This document shows, one piece after another, positions 15,797-29,100 of a stretch of DNA of 64,000 nt. Made by a program: the position numbers and the translations under genes. The DNA comes from Alicyclobacillus hesperidum (GTDB taxonomy: Bacteria > Bacillota > Bacilli > Alicyclobacillales > Alicyclobacillaceae): assembly GCF_900107035.1 (NCBI RefSeq), contig NZ_FNOJ01000004.1:1-64000 (forward strand), in the 5' to 3' direction. Every line of letters begins with the position of its first letter. Positions within the stretch are counted from its first letter, which is position 1. The notes under the pieces are model-generated. The model saw nothing but the letters and a program-made list of their open reading frames with translations, made no database searches and was not told the DNA's origin.

Positions 15797-16578
15797 GAGG
15801 CAAGTTGGCAACGCTGACAGGTACGGTTGTTTTCTGTGTTGCGCTTCTGGTCGGTTGTGCACCCGGGGTTCAAAAGGCATCCATCGCTTCCGGAACGGCG
15901 ACAACCATCGTGAAACCTGACGTCTCTTTTGCACCACTTGTCGCGGCGCTGCACAAGAGTGAGCAAGCACAAGAGTACAAGTTGCTGACGACGGTAACGA
16001 TACAGAACGCGAACTTGAAGACCAGTTTTACGGAGTACGGAACTCTTCAAATGCCCAATATGGCCAATATTCAGGTGCATGAAAACAACTTTAATATTGG
16101 GTTGTATCAACAGGGGCAGGTCGCCTATCAACAAGATGGCACCGTTTGGTCGAAAACGGAACCGGTTGCAAATCTGGATGCTTATCAGGGGTATGCTGAT
16201 ATTATTGATAAGGCCATGCAAGACCATCTTCAATTGGCGCAAATGGATAGGACTTACGTCGTGGATGAGTATTGTGATGTCTACCGCGTGATCGTGCCTA
16301 ATGGCGTTGCCGGTCTACCTACCTTTCTGCAGCAGACGCCAGGCACTTCGATCCCGTCCATTGCTAGTCACAGCAGTCCGGTTGAGTACATCTTCTATGT
16401 GGGTGAATCGAGTGGGTACATCCGGCAGGTCCAAACCCAGTCGGTCAACGTCGTCGACGCTGTTGGTTCCTTGTCAATTCAGACGTCCACCATTTTTTCG
16501 GATATTGACAATGCGCAATTAGCGCAAGTTCAAATACCTTCATCCCTGGTTGGTCAATTGGAACATGGTGTTGAATAG
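15793..16578 (+). CDS. Lipoprotein of unknown function
   Basis: A 261-residue predicted lipoprotein. The N terminus has a short basic region, a hydrophobic core and the lipobox LVGC, so the mature protein would begin at Cys22. The rest is hydrophilic with beta-rich character (LLTTVTIQN, VEYIFYVGESSGYIRQVQTQ). This recalls outer-leaflet lipoproteins of the LppX/DUF6612 type, though similarity is weak. The GTG at 15793 is preceded by AAGGAGGGGG and overlaps the previous stop codon by 4 bp (GTGA). It is the last gene of a three-gene operon. A promoter begins immediately after its stop. Confidence 0.83.
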   Translation: MRGKLATLTGTVVFCVALLVGCAPGVQKASIASGTATTIVKPDVSFAPLVAALHKSEQAQEYKLLTTVTIQNANLKTSFTEYGTLQMPNMANIQVHENNFNIGLYQQGQVAYQQDGTVWSKTEPVANLDAYQGYADIIDKAMQDHLQLAQMDRTYVVDEYCDVYRVIVPNGVAGLPTFLQQTPGTSIPSIASHSSPVEYIFYVGESSGYIRQVQTQSVNVVDAVGSLSIQTSTIFSDIDNAQLAQVQIPSSLVGQLEHGVE

Positions 16579-16607
16579 TTGCCAAATTCGGTGATGTGGC
16601 GTACAAT
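16579..16607 (+). promoter_or_regulatory. Vegetative promoter of the c-di-AMP riboswitch/44-codon ORF unit
   Basis: TTGCCA (16579-16584), a 17-bp spacer and TACAAT (16602-16607) give a strong sigma-A-type promoter. The -35 begins at the first base after the lipoprotein stop codon. Transcription would start near 16614, just before the riboswitch. Confidence 0.8.
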
Positions 16608-16617
16608 GCTTGCATGA

Positions 16618-16745
16618 CCTATCGCTGAGTTCCGTTTTTGGGAAGCGGAGGACCCATGGTAAGTGGGGTGAATCGAGATTCTTAGATCTCGTAGGGTATC
16701 CTACACCCGAACCCGTCAGCTAACTCCGTAAGCGTTGTAGGAAGA
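16618..16745 (+). promoter_or_regulatory. c-di-AMP riboswitch (ydaO-yuaA class)
   Basis: The conserved core of the class is present in order: CGCTGAGT, GGAGGACCCA, GGGGTGAATC, TAGGG, ACCCGAACCCGTCAGCTAAC and TCCGTAAGCG. The aptamer senses cyclic di-AMP, and in characterised cases ligand binding lowers downstream expression. Between the aptamer and the ORF start I see a small hairpin (GTTCC-AAAA-GGAAC) but no U-tract. An attenuator terminator is therefore not obvious, and control at translation is possible. Confidence 0.93.
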
Positions 16746-16805
16746 TCAAGCGTGTTCCAAAAGGAACTTGGCTGAGGATCAAATTCAGTCAAGGAGCTGG
16801 TCGAG

Positions 16806-16940
16806 ATGGTCGTAAAGCCAGAATTGCCGCAGTATGTCCGCGATATGGAGATTCAACTTGCGCTAAAACATCTGGGGCGCAAGGAAGGCAGAGTCCGTAA
16901 CGTGCAAAGCGGCGATACGGAAAAGCAAACCCTACGTTAA
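16806..16940 (+). CDS. 44-residue protein under a c-di-AMP riboswitch, function unknown
   Basis: A small ORF too short for usual calling. AAGGAG (16791-16796) is placed 9 bp before the ATG, and TAA ends at 16940, just before a terminator. The protein is hydrophilic with net charge about +3. It has a probable amphipathic helix (QYVRDMEIQLALKHLG, residues 9-24), a basic segment (RKEGRVRNV) and a polar tail. There is no membrane segment, signal peptide or cysteine. Promoter, riboswitch, ribosome binding site and terminator frame exactly this ORF, which is the main argument that it is real. I do not recognise a family. It could alternatively be incidental to a riboswitch-derived RNA. Confidence 0.7.
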   Translation: MVVKPELPQYVRDMEIQLALKHLGRKEGRVRNVQSGDTEKQTLR

Positions 16941-16957
16941 CGTTGATTGATGTCTGT

Positions 16958-16988
16958 AGCGCTGCGGGGCGACCCGTGGCGCTTTTTA
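16958..16988 (+). terminator. Rho-independent terminator of the riboswitch unit
   Basis: An 11-bp stem (AGCGCTGCGGG with CCCGTGGCGCT, two G-U pairs) capped by a GCGA loop is followed by TTTTTA. It closes the unit 17 bp after the stop codon of the 44-codon ORF. Confidence 0.92.
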
Positions 16989-17094: not shown

Positions 17095-17124
17095 TTGGCT
17101 TTATCGCAAATGATACGGTATAAT
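17095..17124 (+). promoter_or_regulatory. Vegetative promoter of rplS
   Basis: TTGGCT (17095-17100) and a perfect TATAAT (17119-17124) are separated by 18 bp. The transcript would have a leader of about 65 nt before rplS. Confidence 0.75.
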
Positions 17125-28117: not shown

Positions 28118-28129
28118 CTTCGTCGTCAA

Positions 28130-28262
28130 ATACTAAGCCGAATCTCCAGATTGATGATCTGGGGTACGGGGGACTTCTTGGTTGTAAGACCTTGGGGTGA
28201 ATCGCCATCTGCGACGGGTGTCTCGTCACCCGAACCCGACAACTAACCCCGGAGGCAGAACG
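28130..28262 (+). promoter_or_regulatory. c-di-AMP riboswitch (ydaO-yuaA class), second copy
   Basis: Core elements are present in order: CCGAATCT, GGGGGAC, GGGGTGAATCGC, CACCCGAACCCGACAACTAAC and CCCGGAGGCAG. CGACAACTAAC replaces the usual CGTCAGCTAAC, a small departure. The ribosome binding site GAGAGGA of the next gene starts at the aptamer boundary (28262-28268), and no terminator lies between them. Ligand folding is therefore likely to mask translation initiation directly. Association with wall hydrolases is the classical ydaO-class context. Confidence 0.93.
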
Positions 28263-28278
28263 AGAGGATTTGGGCAGA

Positions 28279-29100
28279 TTGCGTAAAAAACATTGGTTAC
28301 TCGCAGCAGCGACGATGTGTCTGACCAGTGCATTTGGTGTTTCGACCGCGATGGCCGCGACCGTTAAAGTCGCACCGGGGCAATCGCTATGGTCAATTGC
28401 TCATCGTGCTGGTATTTCTGTGCAAAGTATTGAAGCAGCGAATCCTGGTATGGATCCGATGAATCTACAGGTGGGTGCTACCGTGCAAGTTCCGAGCCCC
28501 ACAGCGTACGTGGTCAAGCCAGGGGATACCTTGTTTACGGTTGGTCGACATTATGGAGTTACTCTTAGTGCCATGCTGGATGCGAATCCACAAGTCAATC
28601 CGCAAAATTTGCAAATTGGTTCGACGATCCGCGTTCCGATCACATCCGCCCAAACTACTCCTACGACAAATGGAACCAGACAAGCAAATCAGGCGGTCAA
28701 TGCCCATGTTGCCGCACCCACATCCGATACTACAAGCAATTTATATTGGCTTGAACACGTGATTAACGCTGAAGCAGGCGGGGAATCTCTGCAGGCGCAA
28801 ATTGCGGTAGGAGATGTCATTATGCATCGTATCGCAGCGGGTGGGTACGGGAACACGGTTCAGCAGGTCGTGTTTCAAGTGAGTAACGGCCACTACCAGT
28901 TTACGAGCGTTGCAAACGGATATATTTACACAGCACCAAACAGCTCCAGCATTACAGCAGCAGAGGACGTTCTACAAAAAGGACAAGACCTGGTTCCCGG
29001 TGCGCTGGTGTTTTACAATCCGTCCGAAACGCCAGCGGGCAGTTGGGTACGTCAGCAACCGGTGATTCGTCAGATTGGGAATTTGGTTTTTGCAAAGTGA
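28279..29100 (+). CDS. LysM-containing cell wall hydrolase (SleB-like catalytic domain)
   Basis: A 273-residue exported protein. A signal peptide (HWLLAAATMCLTSAFGVSTAMA) is followed by two LysM modules (VKVAPGQSLWSIAHRAGISV and YVVKPGDTLFTVGRHYGVTL). A Ser/Thr/Gln linker then leads to a Hydrolase_2/SleB-like domain (LEHVINAEAGGESLQAQIAV, with the catalytic Glu in NAEAGGE). SleB-type enzymes are lytic transglycosylases, often cutting spore cortex, while YkvT/CwlJ relatives act on vegetative wall. The TTG at 28279 is chosen for its 10-bp spacing from GAGAGGA. An earlier TTG at 28270 is too close. It is controlled by a c-di-AMP riboswitch. Confidence 0.93.
   Translation: MRKKHWLLAAATMCLTSAFGVSTAMAATVKVAPGQSLWSIAHRAGISVQSIEAANPGMDPMNLQVGATVQVPSPTAYVVKPGDTLFTVGRHYGVTLSAMLDANPQVNPQNLQIGSTIRVPITSAQTTPTTNGTRQANQAVNAHVAAPTSDTTSNLYWLEHVINAEAGGESLQAQIAVGDVIMHRIAAGGYGNTVQQVVFQVSNGHYQFTSVANGYIYTAPNSSSITAAEDVLQKGQDLVPGALVFYNPSETPAGSWVRQQPVIRQIGNLVFAK

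Follow-up and report, generated by a model that had tools for sequence, protein, structure and literature searches.

A c-di-AMP riboswitch of the ydaO class and a 44-codon gene form a unit with nothing else in it in Alicyclobacillus hesperidum, and the small protein family is conserved in 11 genera of a single bacterial family. We think it probable that the pair is a one-gene translational c-di-AMP OFF switch, whose product would be a small regulator that binds a partner and is produced at low c-di-AMP. The window analyzed here is a stretch of 64,000 nucleotides from contig NZ_FNOJ01000004.1; its first 745 bases contain the 3′ portion of a 23S rRNA gene, inside which the stretch begins, and a gene for 5S rRNA (629-745). 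An earlier note, made from the sequence alone, had described positions 16579-16988 as a stand-alone transcription unit with a single small protein as the only riboswitch target. The coordinates fit the unit that we found and the description holds. Its parts are as follows:

16579-16607, plus strand: promoter-like site, TTGCCA and TACAAT separated by 17 bp, matching 10 of 12 consensus positions
16613-16749, plus strand: c-di-AMP (ydaO/yuaA) riboswitch aptamer, RF00379, 98.6 bits, E 3.7e-22
16624-16633, plus strand: aptamer 5′ strand GCTGAGTTCC, half of the proposed antisequestor helix, from the duplex search
16763-16772, plus strand: platform segment GGAACTTGGC, able to pair in two alternative ways, with the 5′ strand of the aptamer (antisequestor) or, by its CTTGGC, within the sequestor hairpin
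16767-16793, plus strand: sequestor hairpin CTTGGCTGA(GGATCAAAT)TCAGTCAAG, from folding, also present in the minimum-energy fold of the unit
16791-16796, plus strand: ribosome-binding site AAGGAG, from the sequence, nine bases ahead of the ATG
16806-16940, plus strand: 44-codon ORF with an ATG start and the core KPELPxYxRDMEIxxALK, from homologues and pN/pS
16958-16983, plus strand: intrinsic terminator, a stem of 11 pairs with the tail TTTTATTTGA

The aptamer belongs to a known class and is ordinary within it, as the earlier note had recognized: RF00379 matches over its full length (model positions 1-134 of 134), well above the gathering score of 38, and the ATG of the small gene follows 56 bases after its end. 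The terminator was also where it had been placed, and on the plus strand of this region terminator-like sites occur only at 16440 and 3′ of the ORF, with none between the aptamer and the gene. The promoter had been called strong and the ribosome-binding site ideal. A promoter-like site is present; a scan of the region gave 2 such sites against 1.1 in shuffled sequence, and the match alone is therefore weak evidence. Among the relatives, the best promoter-like site has 8-11 of 12 matches. It ends 9-21 bases ahead of the aptamer's CGCTG in all 34, and in 27 of them the spacing is 15-17 bases; this survey took the best site per 60-base window with no shuffle control. The AAGGAG does lie nine bases from the ATG, but it is not free, as the 3′ arm of the sequestor hairpin reaches into it and covers its first three bases. 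The preceding gene stops at 16578, at the -35 box, and this leaves only 34 bases to the aptamer, so that read-through from upstream is possible. On the 3′ side the unit is followed by rplS, then by a GTPase-like gene that we take to be rbgA from its position, and then by a gene that is presumably rnhB-like. Parts of the unit are also covered by further ORFs, 36-56 codons long.

The small ORF is a real gene under purifying selection. A profile search of the order at an E value of 0.1 matched 34 of 59 genomes, and from these matches we set aside one at another locus (G034, E 0.038) and added the homologue of G029, which was too divergent for the profile and was recovered by reading the site before rplS. 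With these changes, homologues are present in 34 of 41 family f1 genomes and in 11 of the family's 16 genera, including all 15 genomes of the genus. The profile search found none in the 18 genomes of the sister family f2; a sample of the class gave matches in 27 of 398 genomes, all within family f1 and none outside it, and a sample of the phylum in 1 of 398, the window itself. Because the profile missed the divergent G029 protein, absence elsewhere holds at the sensitivity of that profile. The relatives that carry a species name (eight loci) are all Alicyclobacillus, namely A. tengchongensis (93% identity), A. sacchari (84%), and then A. fastidiosus, A. fructus, A. mali, A. sendaiensis, A. acidiphilus, and A. 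suci. Conservation is concentrated in the first 22 or so residues, with the typical motif K.PELP..Y.RD[LM]EI..[AS]L; among 33 sequences, E6, L7, E15, I16, and L20 are invariant, and P5, R12, and D13 are nearly so. The C-terminal tail is variable: some members of the genus have a basic tail, that of other genera is mostly acidic, and the earlier description of the protein as basic does not extend to the family.

Codon conservation, which the earlier note had proposed as a check, argues strongly for translation. Over nine independent species pairs, pS was 0.306 and pN 0.072, giving a pN/pS of 0.236 overall and 0.084 in the 22-codon core, compared with 1.28 and 1.34 in the two alternative frames. 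The differences fall 31/33/92 on the three codon positions (Fisher p 6e-22, from rounded counts). A chance ORF is ruled out by the homologues, the pN/pS values, and the frame controls. We see next to no likelihood that the ORF is untranslated and conserved only as RNA, for example as a 3′ part of the switch or as a small RNA. The unit as a whole is structured (z -3.0 on folding), which is in keeping with such a role, but the excess of third-position differences and a pN/pS of 0.24 against about 1.3 in the other frames speak for a protein, and the frame is kept even though the family proteins range from 43 to 54 residues in length.

The gene is also tied to the aptamer. The earlier note had suggested searching for the peptide and the aptamer as a pair in relatives, and within the genus both the ORF and the aptamer were found in 15 of 15 genomes. 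Across the whole set an aptamer lies 5′ of 32 of the 34 ORFs (four of these sites, in G015, G026, G029, and G036, were added by a further search), and every one of the 32 aptamer-bearing sites carries the frame; the note had named the opposite outcome, loss of the frame where the riboswitch is kept, as one that would count against the gene. Joint absence is seen as well: in six genomes (G023, G028, G033, G037, G038, and G039) the flanking lipoprotein gene and rplS are both present, and between them we found neither the ORF motif nor a match to RF00379, while the positive control, G029, was matched. The contig of G034 begins 62 bases before rplS, and its syntenic site is out of view. No further homologue was noticed among the ORFs listed behind 60 of the at least 75 aptamers in 13 genomes without the syntenic gene. 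In G034 a small ORF (MEVREAVPELNQLLRDAEIQERLRQL...) begins about 20 bases behind an aptamer, near dehydrogenase-like genes (L098, 6915-7260); it is a weak relative of the window protein (E 0.038), too weak to count.

Synteny is well kept: of the 34 genomes, 33 have rplS next to the small gene (14 of 15 in the genus, G029, and 18 of 18 others). This proximity is what could suggest that the small ORF is a leader peptide governing the next gene, rplS or, elsewhere, an HlyD-like gene, but we consider this very unlikely. A looser script places a terminator-like site 3′ of the ORF in 31 of the 34 relatives, rplS has a separate promoter-like site of its own at 17095-17124, and roughly 1 kb with an HlyD-like gene intervenes in several genera. 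Furthermore, G011 retains the unit though its next gene differs, as the upstream lipoprotein gene is retained and a citrate-synthase-like gene (by reading) replaces rplS downstream, and the selection is on amino acids. We therefore rejected a leader peptide for rplS on the grounds of the terminator-like site, the separate promoter-like site, and the absence of rplS in G011. The G011 locus (L025, 1-1272) shows a local rearrangement that left the riboswitch unit intact. The HlyD/EmrA-like gene (by reading) stands between the small gene and rplS at L081, L084, L086, L090, L092, and L080, and the window has no room for such a gene.

The arrangement of the leader suggests how the riboswitch could act on the gene. 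All 34 leaders carry GGAA[C/T] or GGGAC between the aptamer and the start, and the GGAAC segment with its neighbors is complementary to the aptamer 5′ strand (AUCGCUGAGUUCC). This platform segment is part of the best duplex of that strand with the region behind the aptamer in all 34 leaders. In 27 of them, at most 5 of 300 shuffles, which preserve base composition only, gave as good a duplex; the window's own leader is statistically weak, with 30 of 300 shuffles as good, and the other weak leaders are G005 (31), G011 (24), G040 (26), G030 (17), G024 (56), and G025 (70). When aptamer strands were swapped among genera, a leader's own pair beat the foreign one in 669 of 888 comparisons, which are not independent of each other, with means of -22.9 kcal/mol for own and -19.1 kcal/mol for foreign strands; the window (G000), its two nearest relatives G005 and G011, and genus g4 ran counter to this, with no clear win over most foreign strands. 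One double-sided change, from G-C to A-U, is found in both genomes of genus g6. The core pairs are canonical in 34 of 34 leaders, in part by construction, as the patterns used in the search restricted the letters possible at these positions, and the extension pairs are canonical in 19-27 of 34.

The same platform can take part in a second structure, a hairpin that extends into the ribosome-binding site. In the genus its stem is CUUGGCUGA/UCAGUCAAG, and elsewhere CCCGCGAUU.../...AAUCGAGGGGG or variants of it, so that stem sequences vary among genera; the fold of G040 differs. At most 10 of 200 shuffles gave as good a hairpin in 23 of 34 leaders, and the remaining 11 are weaker, among them the window (12 of 200) and, weakest of all, G016 (56 of 200) and G036 (77 of 200). 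In much of the genus the stem takes in no more of AAGGAG than its AAG. For the window leader, the sequestor is part of the minimum-energy fold. When each state was forced in ligand-free folding, which leaves out the aptamer pseudoknot and the ligand, the ON fold was lower in energy than the OFF fold in 22 of 32 leaders (ON minus OFF, mean -2.9 kcal/mol, range -12.1 to +7.1). The region of the ribosome-binding site was more open in the ON fold in 25 of 32 leaders (means of 0.45 and 0.29), equally open in two, and less open in five (G008, G013, G027, G031, and G032).

Because the GGAAC segment can pair with the aptamer 5′ strand and the adjoining hairpin overlaps the ribosome-binding site, c-di-AMP should stop translation, and it is on this basis that we infer both the OFF direction and control at the level of translation. 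At low c-di-AMP, the platform GGAACTTGGC would pair with the aptamer 5′ strand (GCUGAGUUCC), opening the aptamer and freeing the ribosome-binding site, and the 44-residue protein would be translated. At high c-di-AMP, as under replete K+, the ligand would keep the aptamer 5′ strand in the P1/P2 helices, and the released platform would fold onto the ribosome-binding site (CUUGGCUGA/UCAGUCAAG) and stop translation. Genus g5 (G024 and G025, at L055 and L056), which accounts for the two ORFs that lack an upstream aptamer, has a leader that looks as if the riboswitch had been reduced to a fixed-ON form, which would match this expectation: the interior of the aptamer is gone, and CGCTG.GTTCC from the start of the aptamer, the GGAACCCGCG platform, and a promoter-like site are kept. 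With its sensor lost and the proposed switching helix retained, this natural form offers a ready control for the mechanism.

We judge it unlikely that the same riboswitch controls the same gene at the level of transcription, by terminating it or by changing the stability of the RNA, and not through occlusion of the ribosome-binding site. There is precedent for it, in that the kdp switch of Bacillus thuringiensis (PMC6488665) and the rpfA switch of Streptomyces (PMC10117811) act by termination. Terminator-like sites also lie between the aptamer and the start in 5 of 34 leaders (G004, G013, G017, G022, and G029), and in G004 and G013 the site is the sequestor itself, where a short T run follows the hairpin, which could end transcription there. 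Termination may thus add to or replace the hiding of the ribosome-binding site in some relatives. However, 29 of 34 leaders, including that of the window, have no terminator-like site in this interval, and the hairpin that recurs across genera extends into the ribosome-binding site.

The protein had been described as unrecognized, and our searches agree with this, as five libraries (Pfam, NCBIfam, PHROG, PADLOC, and PDB sequences) gave no meaningful match. One Pfam match had an E value of 0.17 and was seen in 1 of 14 members, the only PHROG matches had E values of 0.035 and 0.048, each in 1 of 19 members, and the best hit of the PDB profile search was a designed protein (E 0.089). Collections of phages and plasmids gave no match at an E value of 1. 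We therefore rejected a mobile or phage gene, given the lack of a phage or plasmid match at that threshold, the lack of a PADLOC match, and the marginal PHROG matches. AlphaFold, given 33 aligned sequences, predicts one helix at residues 9-29 followed by a disordered tail. The mean pLDDT is 91 over residues 11-20 and values are below 50 for residues 32-44, with an overall mean of 68.6 and a pTM of 0.37. By reading, the predicted helix has amphipathic character. Binding of a partner would suit a short helix that is conserved, bears conserved charged residues, and is followed by a free tail. On the basis of its size, predicted fold, and regulation, we regard the role of regulator, taken by itself, as reasonably likely; the existence of the gene and its tie to the aptamer are much firmer.

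It is rather doubtful that the protein is instead a small structural, membrane-surface, or nucleic-acid-binding factor that does not regulate another protein. The amphipathic character of the helix would suit such a factor, as would the basic tail in part of the genus. The acidic tails in most other genera mean, however, that nucleic-acid or membrane binding through the tail is not conserved, and R12, D13, and E15, which are invariant or nearly invariant in the helix, fit a specific partner. A basic nucleic-acid-binding protein was rejected for the same reason, the tails being mostly acidic outside the genus.

The regulator that we favor would consist of a single amphipathic helix and a disordered tail, would bind its partner through the conserved N-terminal 22 residues, and would serve the response to low c-di-AMP, that is, to low K+ or turgor and to wall growth. 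As to the partner, 20 of the family's 41 genomes have TrkH (KtrB) and 23 have KdpA, with a presence that does not track the small gene, and the genome of the window has no TrkH match. Neither KtrB/TrkH nor KdpA is thus a universal partner, and we dropped an accessory of KtrAB/Trk or of Kdp on this distribution. DarA (PF06153) is present in 41 of 41 family genomes, so that presence and absence are uninformative for it, and a universal c-di-AMP component such as DarA is a possible partner. More tentatively, the family may represent a dedicated small-protein arm of c-di-AMP signaling, in which a family-specific single-helix protein made only at low c-di-AMP would bind and retune a core c-di-AMP or turgor component, for example the cyclase complex, a c-di-AMP phosphodiesterase, or a K+ exporter; we hold this to be possible, and on balance we would not expect it. 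If true, c-di-AMP would feed back through an output other than an enzyme or a transporter.

c-di-AMP riboswitches are a guide to the targets of the signal, and here they lead to a protein family with no meaningful library match, which looks like a genuine new output of c-di-AMP that lends itself to testing. The prediction is clear, with the protein expected to be on at low c-di-AMP and off at high c-di-AMP, and one small Alicyclobacillus gene may in this way open up a level of K+ and turgor control that is perhaps new.

The usual targets of ydaO riboswitches are wall hydrolases and transporters. Five RF00379 elements are carried by the genome, and four of them have ordinary targets, whereas the one before the small gene does not, since its target family lies outside the known classes (wall hydrolase, K+ or osmolyte transporter). 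The second element within the window (28126-28271, plus strand, 69.1 bits) precedes a LysM cell-wall hydrolase (28270-29100) and is ordinary. The other three precede, by reading, an NlpC/P60-type hydrolase, an osmoprotectant-type ABC transporter, and an MFS-type transporter, the last of which lies 212 bases 3′ of its riboswitch. Elsewhere, c-di-AMP riboswitches stand before proteins of 161-225 residues (counted from the first start codon) at L163, L165, L166, L169, and L170 in family f2 and at L124, L126, and L128 in family f1. The f2 set shares SSET....[IV][IV]THE, those of L163, L169, L126, and L124 have no Pfam match at an E value of 0.01, and these proteins look like further undescribed c-di-AMP targets. 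At L130, L131, and L168 the riboswitch precedes a lysine 2,3-aminomutase-like protein (by reading), with a radical SAM match below the cut-off at L130; beta-lysine is an osmolyte.

A literature search for these bacteria, with the first ydaO target surveys outside its scope, found no c-di-AMP riboswitch with a small-protein target; the tables of those surveys may include an unnamed “hypothetical protein” of this kind. What differs here is the target family, the unit with a single gene, and the platform whose shared segment lies on the ribosome-binding site. Compared with the RF00379 class, the aptamer belongs to the same family at 98.6 bits, but the sole target is a 44-residue protein without a library match, the platform hairpin is on the ribosome-binding site, and the window has no terminator-like site before the gene. 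A likeness can also be drawn to MntS of E. coli, a small protein of a homeostasis circuit. Both are small proteins that are switched in step with a homeostasis signal, although in the present case the signal is c-di-AMP and control is by an RNA switch, and we claim no sequence relation between them. Among c-di-AMP riboswitches, that of the kdpFABC operon in Bacillus thuringiensis is OFF at high c-di-AMP and relieved by K+ limitation, with the ligand promoting an intrinsic terminator ahead of the K+ pump operon (PMC6488665). As a c-di-AMP riboswitch of the OFF type, a direction that is inferred for the unit described here, it is similar, but it differs in acting by termination and in controlling a pump operon. 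The rpfA ydaO-like riboswitch of Streptomyces is likewise an OFF switch, working by premature termination on a cell-wall hydrolase (PMC10117811); it resembles our unit as a c-di-AMP riboswitch in the leader of one gene, and differs from it in its wall-hydrolase target and its use of termination.
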